A stretch of DNA of 64,000 bases from Helicobacteraceae bacterium (GTDB taxonomy: Bacteria > Campylobacterota > Campylobacteria > Campylobacterales > Sulfurimonadaceae), in the NCBI GenBank assembly GCA_013138865.1, contig WTBY01000018.1, positions 1 to 64,000 on the forward strand, in the 5' to 3' direction. Of the stretch, positions 2,958 to 15,735 are shown piece after piece (the first letter of the stretch is position 1; every line of letters begins with the position of its first letter). A program made the position numbers and the translations under genes. The notes below the pieces were generated by a model. The model did not search any database. It had not been told where the DNA came from and saw only the letters and a program-made list of their open reading frames with translations.

Positions 2958-4622
2958 TTACTTTAATTTATCTTTAATTAAGTCACCAAGACTATGTCCT
3001 GAATCATCATTAATCTCTGAAAGCATTGCACTCTCTTCAATACGACTTAACTGTTTTACAGAAAGACGGATTCTATCTCTTTGAGTATCAATAACTGCGA
3101 TAACAGCTCTAATTTCTTGTCCAACTTCTAACTCTTCAGCTACAAGTGGTGTTAAGTCTTCATTACGGATAAGTGCATCTAAATCACCATCAAGTGAAAC
3201 AAAAACACCAAAATCTTTAACGTCACGAACTTTTGCTGTAACTACTTCATTTCTTTTATGCTCTGCTGCAAATTTGTCAACAGGAGACTCTTGAAGTGTT
3301 TTAGAGTTTAAAGATATTTTTTGATCTTCATAGTTGATTTTAACAATTTTAACTTCAACTTCTTCACCAACTTTTAACTCAGTCTTACATTTGTAACCTT
3401 TGTCCCATGAAGCATCTTGGTTATGTAAAAGGCCATCAACAGTTCCAACTTTAACAAATGCGCCAAAGTCAGTTAATGAAGTAATAGTTCCTTTAACAAC
3501 ATCACCCTCTTTAAACTTTTCACTAAACTCATCAAATGGTTTAGGTTGAAGAAGTTTAAGTGAAACTCTTAGTTTACGTGTGTCTGGATTGATTTCGATA
3601 ACTTCAACATCAATCTCTTCGCCTACAGTTAAATAGTCGTTAGGATTTTTAATGTGTTTGTCCCAAGTGATTTCTGAAATATGTAAGAAACCTTCTATAT
3701 CATTACCAAGGTCAACAAAAGCACCATAAGGTTCTATGTTGCTAACAGTAACAGTGATAGAATCACCTTCATCTAATTCACTCTCAACTTCAACCCATGG
3801 ATCACTCATAACTGCTTTAATAGATAGTGAAAGGTGACGCTTATCTTTATCGTAAGAGATAGCTTTAACGTTTACTATATCACCCTCATTATAAAGTTTT
3901 GAAGGATTAACAGGTCCTTTGTAGCTTATTTCATTGTAGTGAACTAAACCATCTACGCCACCAACATCTACGAACATACCGTAGCTAGTGATTTTTTTAA
4001 CTGTACCTTCAACGATATTGTCATCAGCCATTAAAGCATCAACAATCTCTTTTTTCTTTTTACGATCTTCATTAAATAGTTTACGACGTGAAACTACCAT
4101 TGAATTATCATCAGCATCAATTTTAATAACTGCTGCTTTAATTTTACGACCAATTACATTGTCAGTCTCTTTGAAAGCTGCAAGTGATCTTGGCATAAAG
4201 AAATTAACTTCATCAACTTCAACAACATAACCACCACGATTTTTCTTAGTAATAATACCCTCTATTACTAGATCCTCGTAATCATCTTTATTAGCTTTAA
4301 TAAACTCAATAGTTTTCTCTTGCTCTAAAACTTTTTTATAAGAAATTTTTGGTCTTTCATTGTAATAACCAACAACCATAACATTGATTTTATCACCAAC
4401 ATTAAACTTATAAGTACCATCTTCTTGACGAATTTCGTCAAGTGATAACATACCTTCTAGTTTCTCACCAACACCAACTAGTGCTCTGTTCTCATCTTCT
4501 TGAAATTCAACGATTTCACCCTCTGTTATACGGTTTGATTTACTATCTTGTGCTTTACAAGACTCCTCAAACATTGCTGCAAAATCTTCTTCTTCACTAA
4601 ATGCTCCGTTATCTAACGCCAT
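2958..4622 (-). CDS. rpsA: 30S ribosomal protein S1
   Basis: Ribosomal protein S1, which helps the small subunit bind mRNA leaders. The 554-residue product shows a chain of S1 OB-fold repeats, recognisable by recurring cores such as EGTVKKITSYGMFVDVGGVDGLVH (quoted in part: YGMFVDVGG), YGAFVDLGN, FGAFVKVGT and FGVFVSLDG, each followed by a basic SLK or SxK element. About six repeats are present, the usual number for proteobacteria. It lies 117 bases downstream of ispH in the same orientation. Confidence 0.96.
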   Translation of the reverse strand: MALDNGAFSEEEDFAAMFEESCKAQDSKSNRITEGEIVEFQEDENRALVGVGEKLEGMLSLDEIRQEDGTYKFNVGDKINVMVVGYYNERPKISYKKVLEQEKTIEFIKANKDDYEDLVIEGIITKKNRGGYVVEVDEVNFFMPRSLAAFKETDNVIGRKIKAAVIKIDADDNSMVVSRRKLFNEDRKKKKEIVDALMADDNIVEGTVKKITSYGMFVDVGGVDGLVHYNEISYKGPVNPSKLYNEGDIVNVKAISYDKDKRHLSLSIKAVMSDPWVEVESELDEGDSITVTVSNIEPYGAFVDLGNDIEGFLHISEITWDKHIKNPNDYLTVGEEIDVEVIEINPDTRKLRVSLKLLQPKPFDEFSEKFKEGDVVKGTITSLTDFGAFVKVGTVDGLLHNQDASWDKGYKCKTELKVGEEVEVKIVKINYEDQKISLNSKTLQESPVDKFAAEHKRNEVVTAKVRDVKDFGVFVSLDGDLDALIRNEDLTPLVAEELEVGQEIRAVIAVIDTQRDRIRLSVKQLSRIEESAMLSEINDDSGHSLGDLIKDKLK

Positions 4623-4739
4623 ACGTATGTCCCTTGTTTTAGTGTTTATCTACTAAACACTATAATATAAAATTGTGCGATGATACCCTAATGTAGCTTG
4701 TTTTTAGATGAAAGGAAGTGAAACAGTGAAAGTTTTACG

Positions 4740-5567
4740 CTATTTTTGTTTTTCTATAACTTCTATAACCTCTTGAATTACCCAATCAGGTGTTGAAGCT
4801 CCTGCACCAATACCACATAAAGTAGCATTTTTAAACCACTCTTTTTTAATCTCTTCAGTATCTTCTATATGATAAGATTTTTCACATAAATTTTCAGCAA
4901 TAGAGTGAAGTTGTTTTGTATTTGATGAGTTTTTACCACCAATTATAATCATTACATCAGCGCGCGATGCTAAGTTTCTTACTGCATTTTGATTCTCAAA
5001 TGTAGCATTACAGATAGTGTTAAAAACTCTCACTTCTTTATAGTTTTCTATTAAATAAGAGGTTAATTTTTGGTACTCTTCTACTTTTCTAGTTGTTTGT
5101 GCAACGATAGCTATTTTATCTTGCAATGCTATACGCTCAAGCTCTTCAACTTTTAAAACAACAAAAGCACGATCACCTACATAACTCTTAACACCTCTAA
5201 TTTCTGGGTGTTCTTCATCTCCAAAAATAACAACATCATAGCCCTCTTCACTCATGGACTCAGATATTTTTTGAAGTTTTGTTACATATGGACATGTTGC
5301 ATCTATTACATCTACTTCTTGCCTGTAAAGAGATGCTAGATCCTCTTTTACTATACCATGGGTTCTAACAACTGCTTTATCACCCTTTTTAAAATCACTT
5401 AAATCTTCACTCAGTGTTACATTAAAGTCATTTTTAAGACGAGAGATCTCTTTTGAATTATGAATAAGCGCACCAAAAGTAGATGAGTTTTGGTTATCTT
5501 CTGCTATTTTAATAGCACGTTTAACACCAAAACAGAAACCATAACTCTCAGCTAACTCAATTTTCAT
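4740..5567 (-). CDS. ispH: 4-hydroxy-3-methylbut-2-enyl diphosphate reductase
   Basis: Last step of the MEP isoprenoid pathway: reduces HMBPP to IPP and DMAPP with a [4Fe-4S] cluster. The 275 residues contain the three cluster cysteines in their usual settings: GFCFGVKRAI near residue 12, DATCPYV in the middle, and CNATFENQNAV in the second half, plus the substrate-binding SSNTKQL. It starts 2 bases after the end of aroA, so the two are one transcript. The aroA-ispH-rpsA order is familiar from Campylobacterota. Confidence 0.96.
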   Translation of the reverse strand: MKIELAESYGFCFGVKRAIKIAEDNQNSSTFGALIHNSKEISRLKNDFNVTLSEDLSDFKKGDKAVVRTHGIVKEDLASLYRQEVDVIDATCPYVTKLQKISESMSEEGYDVVIFGDEEHPEIRGVKSYVGDRAFVVLKVEELERIALQDKIAIVAQTTRKVEEYQKLTSYLIENYKEVRVFNTICNATFENQNAVRNLASRADVMIIIGGKNSSNTKQLHSIAENLCEKSYHIEDTEEIKKEWFKNATLCGIGAGASTPDWVIQEVIEVIEKQK

Positions 5568-5569
5568 AA

Positions 5570-6847
5570 TTATCTTTTTATAGTTGTTATTTGCGAAAGT
5601 AGTTCAAAAAAGTTAGGAAATGATGTATTAATACAATCTAAATCGCTAACTTCCATTCCACATTTTAGTCCAGCTATAATAAAGCTCATAGCAATTCTAT
5701 GATCACCAAAACTATCAACGCAAGCTTTCTTAAGTGTTCCACCAGTTACACTATAACCATCTTTCACTTCACTAACTTCTATACCACATTTAGCTAAGTT
5801 ATCTACAACACTGCTTATACGATCGCTCTCTTTAACACGTAACTCTTCAGCATTTTTAACAACACTAACACCATTAGCACAAGCAAAAGCAATAGAGAGT
5901 GCTGGAAGTTCATCTATAAGCCAAGAGATATTATCTTCGACTACTATAGCTTTTAGTGGTGCATACTTAACAGTTATATTTCCAATAGGCTCGTAAACAT
6001 CTTCTTTAAGATCATAAGTTATATCTGCTCCCATTCGCTCTAAAGCTTTAAAAGCTTCTATACGAGTTGGGTTAAACGTAACTCCCTCTAAAACTACTTC
6101 TGCATTTGGTGTGATCGCGCACGCGACTGCAAAGAAGAATGCACTTGATGGATCTGCTGGAACTCTTATTTTAAGAGGTTTAAGAAGATTTTTCATAGGC
6201 TTTATAGTTGTGACTAAACCCTTAACTGAAATATCAGCACCCATACCTTTTAACATTCGCTCAGTATGGTCACGACTTAGTTCTGGTTCTTTGTATCTAC
6301 ACTCACCATCTGAGCTAAGAGCTGCTAAAATCATTGCACTTTTTACTTGTGCAGAAGCTATTTTACTCTCATAATTATAAGCTTTTAAAGAAGATCCACG
6401 AATACTTAAAGGAGCAAACTCACCATCTTCACGACCATCAAGTTTCGCACCAATAGATCTAAGTGGATGTGTAACTCTTTTCATAGGACGTTCACAAAGG
6501 TATTTATCACCAGTTAAAATAAAATGCCCATTTGCAGAACTTAAAAGTCCACAAAATAGTCTCATACCTGTTCCAGAGTTTCCGCAGTCTAAAATAGCTT
6601 CACACTCTTTTATACCTTTAGAGCTAATTTTAATAATTGTACCATCATCTACTACAGTTGCACCAAGATTTTTTACAATCTCTAAAGAGTTCATAGTATC
6701 TTCAGCTCGTAAAAAATTCTCTATAACAGACTCTCCATCTGCAAGCATTGAGAACATTGCACATCTATGTGAGATCGACTTATCTGGTGCTATTGAGTCT
6801 ATTTTAACACGAAAGCTAGAACATGGTTCAACTACTACTTTACTCAT
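5570..6847 (-). CDS. aroA: 3-phosphoshikimate 1-carboxyvinyltransferase (EPSP synthase)
   Basis: Sixth step of the shikimate pathway: transfers the enolpyruvyl group of PEP to shikimate 3-phosphate. The 425 residues show the PEP-binding DKSISHR near residue 23, [15 protein letters not shown], and RVKESDRI with the catalytic Glu/Asp region. Its start overlaps the pheT stop by 4 bases and ispH follows after 2 bases. Confidence 0.96.
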
Positions 6848-10256: not shown

Positions 10257-11765
10257 ATGGGATTTAGAATAGCTACAAATGTTGGTGCCCTTAACGCCCA
10301 ATATAATCTTAATCAGACACAAAATGAGATGAATAAATCTCTACAAAGACTTAGTTCTGGTTTGCGGATCAACTCCGTAAGCGATGATATAAGTGGTCTT
10401 ACCATTGCAAACTCTTTGCGATCGCAGGCTAACACACTAGGTCAAGCGATCAAAAATGCAAATGATGGCATAGGTATTTTACAAATTGCTGACAAAGCTA
10501 TGGACGAGCAAGTAAAAATTCTTGATACGATCAAGATCAAAGCAACACAAGCCGCACAAGATGGTCAAACAGCTACTTCAAGAGAAGCACTACAAAATGA
10601 TATAACAAGACTAATGGAAGAGCTAGACAACATAGCTGGTACTACCTCTTACAATGGTCAAAGTTTACTTTCAGGCTCATTTACAAATAAAAAATTTCAA
10701 ATTGGAGCTAGTGCTAACCAGACCATAGGGATTAGTATAAACTCAACTTTAAGCTCTCAAATAGGTAATATGAGGTTTGAAACAAGCTCAACAATCACCG
10801 CAATGGGTACAACACTACTTAACTTTACTAACATTCGTGGTGGACTTAGCGTTACTTTAGAGTCAGTTAAACTCTCTAGCAGTGCAGGTACAGGCTTAGG
10901 AGTCTTAAGTGAAGTTATAAATAAAAATTCAGACTTACTAGGTGGAGTAAAAGCTTCATATAGTGTTTTAAGTACTGGTGCTTCTGTAATAACTACGGGT
11001 ACAATCACCGGTCTAACACTTAATGGTATTAGTTTAGGTGACATTGTTATAGATAAAACAAATGATAGTAACGGAGCTTTAGCCTCTACAATAAATACCT
11101 ACTCAACTGATACTGGAGTTACAGCTAGTGTTGATTCAAGAGGTCACTTAGAGTTAAATAGTTTCGATGGACGTGCGATCGTAATGTCTGGGGCTAACCT
11201 CTTCTCACTTTTAGGATTAGGATCAAGCAGTAGCGATAAAGAGGTAAATGTAGGACGACTCTCTTTAACTAAAATTGGTTCAGGTGATATATCGCTAACT
11301 TCTACTCTAAATGGCTCAAATGGTGATGATATTTTTGAGAAATCAAATATGGCAGAAGCATCTACAAACCTACGTTCAATGGCAGGAGCTATTACTGCAG
11401 ATACTGCTAGTGCTATGGGCTTTAATGCTAATACAAATATAGTTAATATAGACTCATCAAAAGGCTCAGGAGTGACAACACTTCATGGCGCTATGGCGAT
11501 GATGAGTATTGCAGACTCTGCACGTGAACAGCTAGACTCTATAAGAGCAAGAGTAGGATCAACACAGAGCCAATTTGAACACACTGTTAGTAATATTTCT
11601 GTAACTGCTGTAAACCTAAAAGCGGCCGAGTCACAAATACGTGATATTGATTTTGCACAAGAGAGTGCAAACTTCTCAAAATTAAACATCCTAGCACAAT
11701 CAGGAACATACGCCCTCTCACAATCATTAAGAATGCAAGAGTTAGTTCTTAGACTACTTCAATAA
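10257..11765 (+). CDS. flagellin
   Basis: Filament subunit of the flagellum. The 502 residues have conserved N- and C-terminal D0/D1 coiled coils (start GFRIATNVGALNAQYNLNQ; end NLNILAQ-like SGTYALSQSLRMQELVLRLLQ, in part) flanking a Ser/Thr/Gly-rich variable centre of about residues 170-390. The D1 segment ILDTIKIKATQAAQDG has the campylobacterial sequence known to evade TLR5. The start is fixed by the family's N-terminus, yet no Shine-Dalgarno site is visible before the ATG (the 14 bases upstream read GTCGATGTTATAGTT). Single gene here, with no fla neighbour. Subtype (flaA or flaB) not assignable. Confidence 0.95.
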   Translation: MGFRIATNVGALNAQYNLNQTQNEMNKSLQRLSSGLRINSVSDDISGLTIANSLRSQANTLGQAIKNANDGIGILQIADKAMDEQVKILDTIKIKATQAAQDGQTATSREALQNDITRLMEELDNIAGTTSYNGQSLLSGSFTNKKFQIGASANQTIGISINSTLSSQIGNMRFETSSTITAMGTTLLNFTNIRGGLSVTLESVKLSSSAGTGLGVLSEVINKNSDLLGGVKASYSVLSTGASVITTGTITGLTLNGISLGDIVIDKTNDSNGALASTINTYSTDTGVTASVDSRGHLELNSFDGRAIVMSGANLFSLLGLGSSSSDKEVNVGRLSLTKIGSGDISLTSTLNGSNGDDIFEKSNMAEASTNLRSMAGAITADTASAMGFNANTNIVNIDSSKGSGVTTLHGAMAMMSIADSAREQLDSIRARVGSTQSQFEHTVSNISVTAVNLKAAESQIRDIDFAQESANFSKLNILAQSGTYALSQSLRMQELVLRLLQ

Positions 11766-11769
11766 ACTT

Positions 11770-11976
11770 TTATAGCAACTCTTCTTGTGGTTTTGAGAAA
11801 AAATACCCTTGAGTATAATCAACCCCTAACTCTTTAAGTATTTCGAATACTGCTTCATTCTCTACAAACTCTGCGATTGTTTTAATATTCATCTTTTTTG
11901 CATAATAAACAATAGTTTCAACTGATCGCGTGACATCTAGTTCTACATGTTTTGTCATAAATCCCATTAATACCAT
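11770..11976 (-). pseudogene. C-terminal remnant of an EAL-domain phosphodiesterase
   Basis: The 68 residues match only the last third of an EAL domain: VETIVYYAKKMNIKTIAEFVEN, where the catalytic-site Glu of AEFVE is present, then GVDYTQGYFFSKP. The N-terminal EAL signature, the DDFG-type metal motif and the KID motif are missing, so it cannot hydrolyse c-di-GMP. The break point at about 11976 adjoins the restriction-modification genes, which suggests the gene was cut when that island arrived or rearranged. The upstream 100 bases show only a hairpin (CGATAATTT...AAATTATTCG) and no gene. Confidence 0.8.
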
Positions 11977-12084
11977 TTTATTGTTTGTAACCTAACGTTT
12001 TTCGTGAGCGATAATTTTCCTTTAGGTAAATTATTCGTTCCTCGTACTTGTTGTGTGTCTTTTAGCTAAGTTACTTTTTAATAA

Positions 12085-13152
12085 TTATGTAGCCACTTTT
12101 CCATAAGTATACAAAATGACATCTTTTATTATTTGTTTTTTTATAGCAGAGATAAGGGTGTTCATTATCTTATAATTAGGTTTATTATTTTCGATAGGCA
12201 GTTGAATGTATTTATCTTTTACAACATTCCATCCTCCTAATTTATTTTTGTATGAATATATAGATAAATCTGTTACTTTGTTGATACATGGAACTGTAAA
12301 TAAATACTGGTTGGGAGATAGTTGCACATCATTATAAATCCAATTAATTGCATAAGCATCAGATAAAACTGTAAACTCATTTGATTGAAAGTATGCCCGA
12401 TAAATATCACTATTTGAAGGAATTGAAATTACATTCTTTAAAATTGTTGCCCCATCTTTAGGTGCATAATAATTTAACCCTTGGTTTTGAAAACTTGATG
12501 TAAGACATGGTAATGTATAGTTGCCTTTTATCTGTTTTGATAGTTCATCCGCCTTAAAAGGTAACTTTTTTGTTTTGATTCTTTCAAATAGAGTTCCAAG
12601 TCTAAACTCACTCCAATCAATGCTTACAAAATCATCCAAAGCCTTTTGCTCTTCACTCGTTAAAGTATAATCTTCTAATCCACTAACTTTTAAATAGTCT
12701 TCTAGTTTAGCTATTCGTTCTGATTCTAGTTCTGTTATAAAGTTTTCCATAAATTCAAAATATATTTCACCATTTTTTGTTGGAAGCTGAATTTTTGTAT
12801 TTATAAATATATTATCTACATCTCTTACAAGCCCTGTAAGTAATTTCTTTTTTTGTGTGTTTAAAATTACAGTAAAAAACGGTATTGATTTTTTTGTAAT
12901 TTTGATTTTTGGAATTATTTTTCTAACAAATTGTCCTGCATACCAAGATTTTTGGCGATAAAAAAAGTCCATTTGTAAGAGTCCTAGACTCCAAATACCT
13001 TTTGAATTTATATTTGCCTGATTAACAAATCCTGTTCCTTGTAAAATACCTTGATTTTGAGAAGTTCTTGTAACATAGTCATACTCTGAACCGATTACAA
13101 GTTTATCTTTGTTAAAACTCAAAGTATTTTTTATATCAAATAAATCAGCCAA
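12085..13152 (-). CDS. specificity (S) subunit of a BcgI-like restriction-modification enzyme
   Basis: DNA recognition subunit with two target-recognition halves; the second half starts at about residue 176 with SEFRLGTLFERIKTKK and contains LPCLTSSFQNQG, while the first half has LFDIKNTLSF and VTRTSQNQG. The listed start is a TTG at 13152 with a GGGGAG site about 9 bases upstream. The same frame is open further upstream and encodes the usual beginning of the first half (KWGEYKLADLF), with no ATG, GTG or TTG there. This and the slippery site at 13206-13212 suggest that a fusion with the preceding subunit is also made by frameshifting. Length fits BcgIB-type subunits. Confidence 0.8.
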   Translation of the reverse strand: MADLFDIKNTLSFNKDKLVIGSEYDYVTRTSQNQGILQGTGFVNQANINSKGIWSLGLLQMDFFYRQKSWYAGQFVRKIIPKIKITKKSIPFFTVILNTQKKKLLTGLVRDVDNIFINTKIQLPTKNGEIYFEFMENFITELESERIAKLEDYLKVSGLEDYTLTSEEQKALDDFVSIDWSEFRLGTLFERIKTKKLPFKADELSKQIKGNYTLPCLTSSFQNQGLNYYAPKDGATILKNVISIPSNSDIYRAYFQSNEFTVLSDAYAINWIYNDVQLSPNQYLFTVPCINKVTDLSIYSYKNKLGGWNVVKDKYIQLPIENNKPNYKIMNTLISAIKKQIIKDVILYTYGKVAT

Positions 13153-13162
13153 TTTATACTCT

Positions 13163-13212
13163 CCCCACTTAACTTTTTCAAGTTTTTCGCTAAGCGGGGT
13201 ATCTACTTTCCC
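13163..13212 (-). promoter_or_regulatory. candidate -1 programmed frameshift signal joining the R-M and S subunits
   Basis: On the minus strand the methylase frame reads GAG GGA AAG TAG. The bases G GGA AAG (13206-13212) form a canonical X XXY YYZ slippery heptamer, the one used by phage lambda G/GT, directly before the stop. Six bases later a 9-bp stem (CCCCGCTTA at 13191-13199 with TAAGTGGGG at 13163-13171, one G-U pair) can form, the usual place for a stimulator. The -1 frame continues without a stop into the S subunit. Confidence 0.65.
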
Positions 13213-15245
13213 TCATCACCTCTTTGTTTTATAAGAGTAGAGATTTCCCAAGCTAAATAATCACTTACAGTTTTTTTTAAATCTTCTAAAGTTGGCTTAG
13301 TATCTATGGGCGCTGATTGATTCCAGTCTGCTCCATTTGTTGGGTCTATGTTACCCTCGTAATACTCTTTATCACTAAAAATATTGAGTTTACTCTTCCC
13401 AAAACGTACTAAGTCTATTAGCTCTTTGTATCGCTCTTTTGCATTGCCCGTGTCTTTTAGGTTATTACTTGCTTTTTTACGGTTGCTTCTTGCATAGCCA
13501 TCGTTGGAGAAGTCTATAAACTTTACCATTTCATCTTTATGGTGCTTTTCACCTACTTTAAAAACATAAATATTGGTTTGTACACTTGCTTTTCCTATAA
13601 AAATATCTATGGGCATTTTTATACTTGCTACTAGGGTATGCTTTTCTAATATACTTGTCGTGTACTCTCTAGCTTTTCCAGAACCAGCAGAGTTTTGAAT
13701 AATAATTGCAGCATATCCTTTATTCATCATATTAAGTGCTGTTTGAACAAAAACCATACCGTTACCATCTGCCGAATAGGGAGGATTTAGTACAAAGGCA
13801 TCTGCTGGAAACTTTTCATCAGTTTTTCCAAAACCATAGTTTCCATCAAAATCTACCAATGAATCTTTATTTAAAATATTTGAGCTTCCATCACCCATCA
13901 AAATCATGTTTAAGATTGCTAGCATATAGACACTAGAGAGTAACTCTAATCCTAGCAGTTGTTCTGCCTTTATTTTCATCTCTTTTTGTGTAAGTTCATC
14001 AGGTGAAGTAATACTATTTTTAGCATCTATTAGCATCTCATTCATAGCTGCAACCAAAAGTCCAGCTGAACCTGTGGCAAAATCCCACACATAAGAGTCT
14101 TTGTGTACTCTTGCAAGCTTCACTAAAGTAGAGGCAATATAAGAGGGTGTTAAAACTACATCATTGAGTTTGTCTTGTGAAAATCCAAGCCATCCATACA
14201 TCTCATTAAATAGTTTACCTGTAAAATCCGTTGTTAAACCAATTTTATAATATATCCCTATGTCGTCCATAATTTTAGAAAACACTCTTTTAAGTTGACT
14301 CTCTCCATCTTGTACTTTATTGATATTTTCAGTTAAAAGTGTGTTCGAGAGTGTTCTAATAATTAACTCTTTCTTCTCTTGAGGAATGCCCTTTTCATTT
14401 AAAAAAGCGGTAATTCTACGAATGATAATATCGCCATCTGTTCCACCAGCGTATGTTTGTGATTTTAAATCATCTTTTTCAAGAACAGGAACTTTATTTG
14501 CTATTCCAATAGTAGCTATAATGGAAGCTGCCACGAGATAAACACGATCATTTTCTCCCAAGCCTTTTTCGTTTTCGTAGATGTGATTATTTAGTTTTAC
14601 TAAACTAGCATCAATCTCTTTCTCTTTTTGTGCTTTGAGTTCGTCTAGCTCTTCTGATGAGAGATGTAAGTTTTTTACTTTTTCAATAAAAGCATCAAAA
14701 TTTTCATCTGCTAAAAAAGAAAAGTCTGAATAATCTCCAACTTTTTGTCCAACTCCGAGGTTGCTTTTTGAAACAAAGTAGACACCGATTTGATGTTGAA
14801 TGTCACCCTTAGCATCTTTATAACCTGTCATTCCAATAGCAATAATATCAGTGTAACTGGTATGATGTAAAAGTGCATTTGCATAATGGACTGCACCATT
14901 TACAGCAAACTCTTTTATATTTTTGTAATTTGGTTCACTTTTGGCTGTTTTATTTTCAACTTGTGCATCAGAATTAAGTTTTTCTAACTTGCCTTTAATC
15001 CCTTTGTATTCAATAAGTATTGGAAAGTAATTTAAGTTCTTATCTGATCTTAGTAGTTTTGCATCAGGCCTATTACCCCCTTTTCCTCCACCTTTAGATT
15101 CATATTCTTTAAGAGCTTTATCTATTTGATGCTCATTTGTAAGGTCTGAATTAAAAGATTCTTGTTCAAGTTTATAATCTAACTCATAAGATTTTAGCCA
15201 GCCACTTGCTAACTCTGTAATATTTGGTTCTATTGATTGTGCCAT
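13203..15245 (-). CDS. BcgI-like fused endonuclease/N6-adenine methyltransferase
   Basis: One chain of 680 residues that both cuts and methylates DNA. The N-terminus has a PD-ExK nuclease arrangement: RPD with Asp61, then IEYK with Glu79 and Lys81. The gamma-type N6 methylase follows: motif I DFATGSAGLL at about 388-397 and catalytic motif IV NPPY at about 487-490. No helicase subunit (HsdR) is nearby, so this is not a classical type I system but a type IIB/IIG enzyme working with the adjacent S subunit. Starts at 15245; its promoter lies in the motif-rich gap upstream. Confidence 0.85.
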   Translation of the reverse strand: MAQSIEPNITELASGWLKSYELDYKLEQESFNSDLTNEHQIDKALKEYESKGGGKGGNRPDAKLLRSDKNLNYFPILIEYKGIKGKLEKLNSDAQVENKTAKSEPNYKNIKEFAVNGAVHYANALLHHTSYTDIIAIGMTGYKDAKGDIQHQIGVYFVSKSNLGVGQKVGDYSDFSFLADENFDAFIEKVKNLHLSSEELDELKAQKEKEIDASLVKLNNHIYENEKGLGENDRVYLVAASIIATIGIANKVPVLEKDDLKSQTYAGGTDGDIIIRRITAFLNEKGIPQEKKELIIRTLSNTLLTENINKVQDGESQLKRVFSKIMDDIGIYYKIGLTTDFTGKLFNEMYGWLGFSQDKLNDVVLTPSYIASTLVKLARVHKDSYVWDFATGSAGLLVAAMNEMLIDAKNSITSPDELTQKEMKIKAEQLLGLELLSSVYMLAILNMILMGDGSSNILNKDSLVDFDGNYGFGKTDEKFPADAFVLNPPYSADGNGMVFVQTALNMMNKGYAAIIIQNSAGSGKAREYTTSILEKHTLVASIKMPIDIFIGKASVQTNIYVFKVGEKHHKDEMVKFIDFSNDGYARSNRKKASNNLKDTGNAKERYKELIDLVRFGKSKLNIFSDKEYYEGNIDPTNGADWNQSAPIDTKPTLEDLKKTVSDYLAWEISTLIKQRGDEGK

Positions 15246-15735
15246 CTGTTTTCCAATGTGTTTTTATTATATTTTTAAAATTTATATTTGCTATTTTAGC
15301 TGAAGATTGATTTAAAGTTTATTTAGTCGCACAACTATTTATTAAAGGAACATTATAACGTGAATAAACTATATTTTAACAAATAAAGGAACACCAAAAA
15401 TGTCCCTTTAGTATCGCTTAAAGTAAGCAAAATACTAAATAATATGACGAAATGCAATATATTTACGGATTTCATTATTTTTAGTTTATTGTTCTTAAAC
15501 AAAAAGTGTCCTTTTAGTACGGGAATATCTATTATTCAGACAAAAGTGTTCCTTGATTTGTTGAAAAAAGTATTAAAAGGACATTGTGTCCCTTAAGCGA
15601 AAGATTTTAATTAAGTCATTAGTGTTATATCAACATAAAAAATAGTTATTTATTAATTTTATTACCAAAAAAACAACAATTAATTTTAAGCTTTTTTATA
15701 TACAATTCCCTTTAAATACTATTAAAAGGTAGAAA
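15246..15735. repeat. intergenic cluster of AAAGGRACA-type short repeats
   Basis: No gene in these 490 bases. A short motif close to TAAAGGRACA recurs in both orientations: forward at about 15342 (TTAAAGGAACA), 15385 (TAAAGGAACAC) and 15573 (TAAAAGGACA); reverse at about 15401 (TGTCCCTTTA), 15507 (TGTCCTTTTAG), 15546 (GTGTTCCTTG) and 15586 (GTGTCCCTTAAG). The last two forward/reverse copies form an inverted pair. The function is unknown: operators for the divergent R-M gene or a remnant of a mobile sequence are possible. The promoter of the gene at 15736 lies at the right end. Confidence 0.55.

Follow-up and report, generated by a model that had tools for sequence, protein, structure and literature searches.

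A probable programmed -1 ribosomal frameshift site between the nuclease-methyltransferase and specificity frames of a BcgI-like restriction-modification family

Introduction

How does a restriction enzyme acquire its specificity subunit if the reading frame of that subunit has no obvious start of its own? The question is raised by a restriction-modification (R-M) locus on contig WTBY01000018.1 of the Helicobacteraceae bacterium assembly GCA_013138865.1. We analysed the first 64 kb of the forward strand (hereafter the window), and all genes discussed lie on its minus strand. The nuclease-methyltransferase gene of the locus (RM) stops just inside an overlapping frame encoding a specificity (S) subunit. 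A first-pass annotation of the DNA had proposed that a lambda-type -1 frameshift fuses the two, an interpretation supported overall by the sequence comparisons reported here. The junction very probably directs programmed -1 ribosomal frameshifting in the manner of lambda G-GT and dnaX, and the -1 shift itself can be strongly inferred. Most known cases of programmed frameshifting in bacteria come from dnaX, prfB, insertion sequences and phage tail genes. Lambda gpG-gpGT uses GGGAAAG and dnaX uses A_AAA_AAG with a downstream stem, and both give two products sharing an N-terminus. The two frames in the window are:

13203 to 15245, minus strand: RM gene, 680 amino acids, Type IIG/IIB nuclease (PD...ExK) fused to a gamma-class N6-adenine methyltransferase; predicted termination product
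12085 to 13212, minus strand: S reading frame, -1 relative to RM, with two target recognition domains (TRDs); C-terminal part of the predicted RM-S fusion

A BcgI-like enzyme with an unusual junction

The RM chain matches PADLOC PDLC03616 (3.9e-229) and Pfam N6_Mtase (3.4e-21), and its PD/ExK and NPPY positions are invariant or near-invariant among relatives (alignment A1). A nuclease and a gamma-class N6-adenine methyltransferase are thereby joined in one chain, as in BcgI-like Type IIG/IIB enzymes. The S frame matches PADLOC PDLC03593 (8.3e-65) and Pfam Methylase_S in two stretches (2.7e-24), corresponding to the two TRDs of BcgI-like systems. A sequence search of the PDB returned only weak matches to EcoKI HsdM for RM and none for S. 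The methyltransferase class, the two-TRD S and the gene order RM-S are all shared with BcgI and Type IIB systems. In contrast to these systems, S has no conserved start of its own and is predicted to be made as a tail of RM, whereas the BcgI-like outgroup mostly has overlapping ordinary starts.

The RM open reading frame ends in GAT GAG GGA AAG TAG, and the slippery G_GGA_AAG that the first-pass annotation had recognized in this end is present in the sequence. The S frame comprises 375 codons and continues far beyond the zero-frame stop, as expected downstream of a frameshift site. From GKVDTPLSEKLEKVKWGEYKLADLF onward the -1 frame is open, and immediately upstream a TGA touches the heptamer.

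The slippery heptamer is conserved across the family

The elements at and before the stop are:

13206 to 13212, minus strand: slippery heptamer G_GGA_AAG
13200 to 13205, minus strand: 6-nt spacer TAGATA, including the zero-frame stop TAG (13205 to 13203)
13215 to 13222, minus strand: Shine-Dalgarno (SD)-like GAGGTGAT just upstream of the heptamer, a candidate extra stimulator only

GGGAAAG at 13212 to 13206 is the sole copy on either strand of the window. It has the X_XXY_YYZ form in phase with the zero frame, as in bacterial -1 frameshift sites, and G_GGA_AAG is described as highly shift-prone in E. coli (PMC5009743). Relatives were retrieved by a GTDB scan (80 relatives, 74-96% identical, many phyla) and more were added from genomes of the window's own family. 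A first set of 81 non-redundant junctions was later extended to 98 unique junctions that were scored. The first 81 carry an in-phase GGGAAAG (64) or GGGAAAA (17). All 98 carry an in-phase G_GGA_AAR (G_GGA_AAG in 76, G_GGA_AAA in 22), so the slippery site first proposed for a single locus recurs in every scored relative. Not counted among the 98 are eight loci missed by the filter of the scoring script (L120, L124, L125, L127, L128, L134, L219, L220); the heptamer was read by eye in seven of these, and L219 is known from a covariance-model match only. L078 has lost the heptamer (CTG GAA AAA TAA); in L066, a frame error occurs further upstream, within RM. Junctions with a named phylum (n = 71) cover ten phyla, many through metagenome-assembled genomes.

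Codon usage at the heptamer departs strongly from the surrounding genes. Ten different codons, for nine amino acids (L, E, S, Q, V, P, K, G, A), occur before GGA, and in all 98 junctions the codon there ends in G, against a background of 13% (log10 p = -67.6 given the amino acids, assuming independent loci), and the Lys codon is AAG in 78% compared to 19% elsewhere in the same genes; relatedness inflates such probabilities, and we take them as a sign of strong constraint and not as literal values. Both codons thus appear to be strongly constrained at the heptamer. An SD-like motif of at least 5 nt upstream of the heptamer occurs in 33% of loci and in 1.1% of control windows in the same genes. 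Despite this enrichment we retain the motif as a candidate only because its spacing to the heptamer varies (2-17 nt).

A downstream hairpin is maintained by selection on pairing

The structure past the spacer consists of:

13189 to 13199, minus strand: 5' arm of an 11-bp hairpin (CCCCGCTTAGC), putative frameshift stimulator
13174 to 13188, minus strand: hairpin loop of 15 nt, in which the S frame reads E-K-L-E-K, with a near-invariant Leu among relatives
13163 to 13173, minus strand: 3' arm of the hairpin (GTTAAGTGGGG)

RNA structure a few nucleotides past the heptamer is a hallmark of bacterial -1 frameshift sites. The first-pass annotation had placed a 9-bp stem 6 nt past the heptamer; the spacing was correct and the stem is longer, with 11 bp (13199-13189 with 13173-13163). 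The hairpin has a minimum free energy of -18.7 kcal/mol (z = -3.8), and none of 200 shuffles was as stable. The first 81 junctions all have a stem that begins 3-8 nt past the heptamer, is 10-18 bp long and exceeds the 99th percentile obtained by shuffling the downstream sequence. In 75 of the 81 loci, the hairpin falls in one ungapped register at constant spacing from the heptamer, with compensatory changes in the stem. Two loci with longer loops (L032, L063) have a stem whose sequence differs. Core cells of the stem are paired in 812 of 825 cases, whereas the count after exchange of 3' arms between loci is 786.7 +/- 2.7 (maximum 802 in 5000). Among 57 distinct sequences, 98.6% of cells are paired versus 96.2 +/- 0.3 and covariation is 0.275 versus 0.215 +/- 0.008, values reached in 0 of 500 shuffles each. 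A Leu codon within the stem is CTT or CTC in nearly all loci, with CTC confined to those that have a G opposite (22/22; Fisher p = 1.3e-4). Stem pairing evidently shapes the synonymous codon choice at this position.

The position of the zero-frame stop varies in a few loci. L030 and L039 reach it one codon later, yet the spacing between heptamer and hairpin is unchanged, and in L141 the stop is eight codons further on. A stop right after AAG is evidently usual and not essential. With a covariance model of the signal, 397 genomes from the class of the window gave 18 strong matches, separated from noise by six orders of magnitude. Seventeen were read in detail and are all RM-S junctions of the family, and the remaining one is L219. 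The window's own genome has exactly one match. Heptamer and hairpin together are far beyond chance because both recur at the same junction across the family.

Such recurrence also bears on whether the frame break is a mere mutation, a sequencing error or a switchable tract. R-M genes often decay or undergo phase variation, one relative (L142) carries a GACA-type repeat, and two loci (L021, L052) look broken. The break nevertheless falls on one and the same base in some 100 genomes, complete ones included, with heptamer and hairpin under selection, and GGGAAAG is no long repeat. As a general explanation, decay, error or phase variation is contradicted by this conservation, and we give it hardly any credence.

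Does S have its own start?

Near the N-terminus of S, a single codon is a candidate for ordinary initiation:

13150 to 13152, minus strand: TTG; initiation here would drop a conserved W

The first-pass annotation had described the -1 frame as open into S with no standard start in that stretch, and we find no ATG, GTG or TTG in the S frame of the window between GKVDTPLSEKLEKVKWGEYKLADLF and the TTG at 13152. It had also held that the N-terminal half of S is complete only if read through. An S begun at this TTG indeed loses the conserved W, and the Pfam Methylase_S score falls from 86.7 to 78.4 bits. It had further suggested that TTG initiation and frameshifting may compete, and in the window the GGGG of an SD-like GGGGAG before the TTG does sit inside the stem. 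Such a competing start is not conserved in the family: only 4 of 98 loci combine an SD with an S-frame start ahead of the conserved W.

Ribosomes might alternatively terminate at TAG and reinitiate at a nearby TTG, GTG, ATG or a non-standard codon, with the hairpin regulating a coupled reinitiation that makes S separately. The TTG with its GGGGAG would permit this, some S-frame ATG, GTG or TTG precedes the conserved W in 51 of 98 loci, ordinary S starts are used in L121, L123 and the BcgI-like outgroups, and hsdM and hsdS of EcoKI are coupled by overlap (PMC3510504). Yet 47 of the 98 loci have no such codon before the W, and 17 have none for 90 nt. Reinitiation would also leave unexplained the fixed G before GGA AAR and the AAG bias, the constant spacing between heptamer and hairpin where the stop moves, and the coding signature of the S frame upstream of its starts. 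Of 81 loci not selected for openness, 79 have an S frame that runs open across the junction, the exceptions being the broken-looking L021 and L052, and both other frames are closed in every intact locus. The loop precedes every start codon in 46 loci; within it, the S frame varies least at its second codon position, and one Leu is near-invariant. The coding signature and the scarcity of starts favour frameshifting over a second start, and separate initiation is in our view very improbable. Normally started S genes without heptamer and hairpin, which the first-pass annotation had named as evidence to the contrary, were found only at greater distance, in L121 and L123 (41-43% identity) and in the BcgI-like outgroup (27-33%).

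One gene, two predicted products and the proposed supply of RM per TRD

If the site works as proposed, ribosomes in the RM frame would mostly stop at TAG and release free RM. A fraction would be held up by the 11-bp hairpin, shift back from GGA AAG to GGG AAA, resume at GTA GAT and yield one RM-S chain bearing both TRDs. A single mRNA would thus provide both RM and RM-S. One RM-S and one free RM might then assemble into the (RM)2S core of BcgI-like enzymes, with one RM per TRD. BcgI and BsaXI have the composition 2RM:1S (PMC3874165, PMC11997821). BcgI-type enzymes have one RM per TRD, and the single chains with 1RM:2TRD (AloI/CjeI) were called a mystery in the review of Loenen et al. (PMC3874165).

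Natural in-frame fusions speak to the purpose of the frameshift. In five lineages, RM and S share a reading frame (L041; L060; L077; L142; L144/L145). In a FastTree phylogeny, starred branches force five separate switches to in-frame fusion, nested among frameshift relatives. Each in-frame lineage fuses one TRD only (L145 judged by reading), in a HaeIV-like layout. Among intact frameshift loci with a closed S, 64 of 65 have a full-length S, counted as two TRDs (Pfam-tested for the window S), the exception being L059 with half an S. The association of in-frame fusion with one TRD and of frameshifting with two has a Fisher p of 5e-7 without tree correction. The single-TRD fusions and the known stoichiometry suggest that the frameshift probably serves to supply the subunits of (RM)2S in proportion, a purpose of which we are considerably less certain than of the site itself.

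Some in-frame lineages show further features at the junction. L142 (IMGVR_UViG_2558860905_000002, 3001-5694) has one extra A in the heptamer (GGGAAAAATAG), which puts RM and S in frame, and keeps the hairpin. A -1 slip there would terminate at once and release free RM, a dnaX-like inversion. The GACA-type repeat of this locus, (DRQT)n, precedes a second TRD, and the second half looks phase-variable. The single-TRD fusions L144 and L145 carry A_AAA_AAG near the RM C-terminus with a -1 stop a few codons on, so that a slip would free RM; no clear hairpin was seen at these two junctions. An AlphaFold model of the in-frame fusion L077 from one sequence had a predicted local distance difference test (pLDDT) score of 33 and was not used.

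Several observations weigh against the frameshift and stoichiometry interpretation. The majority of junctions come from one clade and are hence not independent. The possible TTG start at 13152 with its SD-like GGGGAG could allow some separate S. L059 retains the signal with a single-TRD S, and in L026 and L072 S is split in two, the first half following the frameshift and the second half seemingly translated separately. The TRD rule is therefore not absolute.

The frameshift might also be real and serve dosage, a low shift rate keeping the site-finding RM-S scarce, for example upon entry into a new host. The family is sporadic and mobile, occurring on phages, plasmids and prophages, and tuned expression is a common theme of R-M systems (PMC6456624). 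BcgI-like enzymes need both subunits for methylation as well as cleavage (PMC3874165), however, so scarce RM-S would delay both, and the one-TRD-only in-frame fusions fit stoichiometry better. Granting the frameshift, we regard dosage as a minority explanation that deserves some weight and that overlaps with the stoichiometric one.

Alternative heptamers and hairpins among distant relatives

Other heptamers and hairpins occupy the same junction in more distant relatives, whose hairpins were read by eye; long branches leave the number of gains unsure. Enterobacterial prophage relatives (L117, L129, L130, L133; RM 66-67% identical) have A_AAA_AAG and a CTCCCG hairpin, with S again in -1. At 32-33% identity, L146/L148 and L147 have G_GGA_AAG with different hairpins. 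L172-L174 (27%) have A_AAA_AAA with another hairpin; their placement in the tree, within the BcgI-like clade that uses ordinary starts, is suggestive of a separate gain. The RM chains of L088-L090, L146 and L148 are 32-39% identical overall, yet in L088-L090 the C-terminus is nearly the same and the junction is the same, suggesting module exchange upstream of the signal.

The A6-A7 runs of the enterobacterial form are sites where RNA polymerase can slip, and the fusion might thus arise by transcriptional rather than ribosomal slippage. The runs in GGGAAAG are only three long, though, a paired hairpin at a distance of 6 nt is in keeping with a ribosomal stimulator, and the heptamer always has the same phase with respect to the RM frame. 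We consider transcriptional slippage exceedingly unlikely.

Taken across its roughly ten phyla, the R-M family plausibly uses a single gene to make both free RM and RM-S in the (RM)2S ratio. The signal appears to have been built anew from other heptamers and hairpins, and to have given way to constitutive fusion at one TRD, as if recoding followed a rule of one RM to one TRD. This broader reading is, like the stoichiometric purpose, likelier to be right than wrong.

Sampling the phyla or class of three genomes (G200, G205, G204) added one genome only, a sparse yield indicating that the family is sporadic. A viral scan with the L. salivarius outgroup query gave no match. Among complete E. coli genomes, 29 of 5426 have a match. 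Relatives in E. coli prophages and phage PhiR12_3 (L118, L119, L122) are located after the antiterminator Q region of lambdoid prophages.

Relation to known systems

The junction resembles lambda gpG-gpGT and dnaX in its heptamers, the downstream stem (as in dnaX), the upstream SD-like motif in a third of loci and the two predicted products with a common N-terminus. It differs in gene, product and apparent purpose, namely a nuclease-methyltransferase with or without a DNA specificity domain. The predicted frameshift product would be a covalent RM-S chain like the single-chain enzymes HaeIV (RM~TRD), AloI and CjeI (RM~2TRD). Unlike in AloI and CjeI, the two-TRD chain would come by frameshift together with free RM, and the 1RM:2TRD puzzle would not arise. 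An engineered EcoKI HsdM-HsdS fusion is functional and requires extra free HsdM for cleavage in vitro (PMC3510504). That fusion is man-made with the frame break removed, whereas free and fused chains are predicted here from one natural gene. The only earlier frameshift proposal for an R-M system that we found is the controller-endonuclease fusion CR.NsoJS138I, for which -1 frameshifting was proposed and the free product was sought and not seen (PMC3850674). Our literature search, which covered few subscription papers, retrieved no report of programmed frameshifting in a restriction enzyme; a 2011 pilot study of recoded bacterial genes may hold an earlier notice. No R-M gene is named as frameshifted in the GeneTack survey or in the accessible part of a 2016 frameshifting review.

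If the interpretation is correct, it would add a new protein class to bacterial frameshifting and a new use, the setting of a subunit ratio in a DNA-cutting complex. It would also provide a natural answer to how a two-TRD single chain acquires a second RM, the puzzle raised in PMC3874165. Frameshifting would furthermore explain odd S annotations, and catalogues of defence systems and methylomes may misread such loci. In E. coli E7-1N7, the annotated S start is a CTG inside RM, and in L118 and L119 S is annotated as pseudogene fragments.

Other features of the window

A fragment at 11770-11991 on the minus strand resembles, by eye, an EAL-domain protein reduced to its C-terminus, the N-terminal part being absent. 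It lies beside the R-M genes and a flagellin gene (10257-11765) and is possibly an insertion scar. Upstream of RM, an AT-rich leader at 15340-15600 contains AAGGRACA / TGTYCCTT boxes at 15345, 15386, 15401, 15547 and 15587, which are possible regulator sites.
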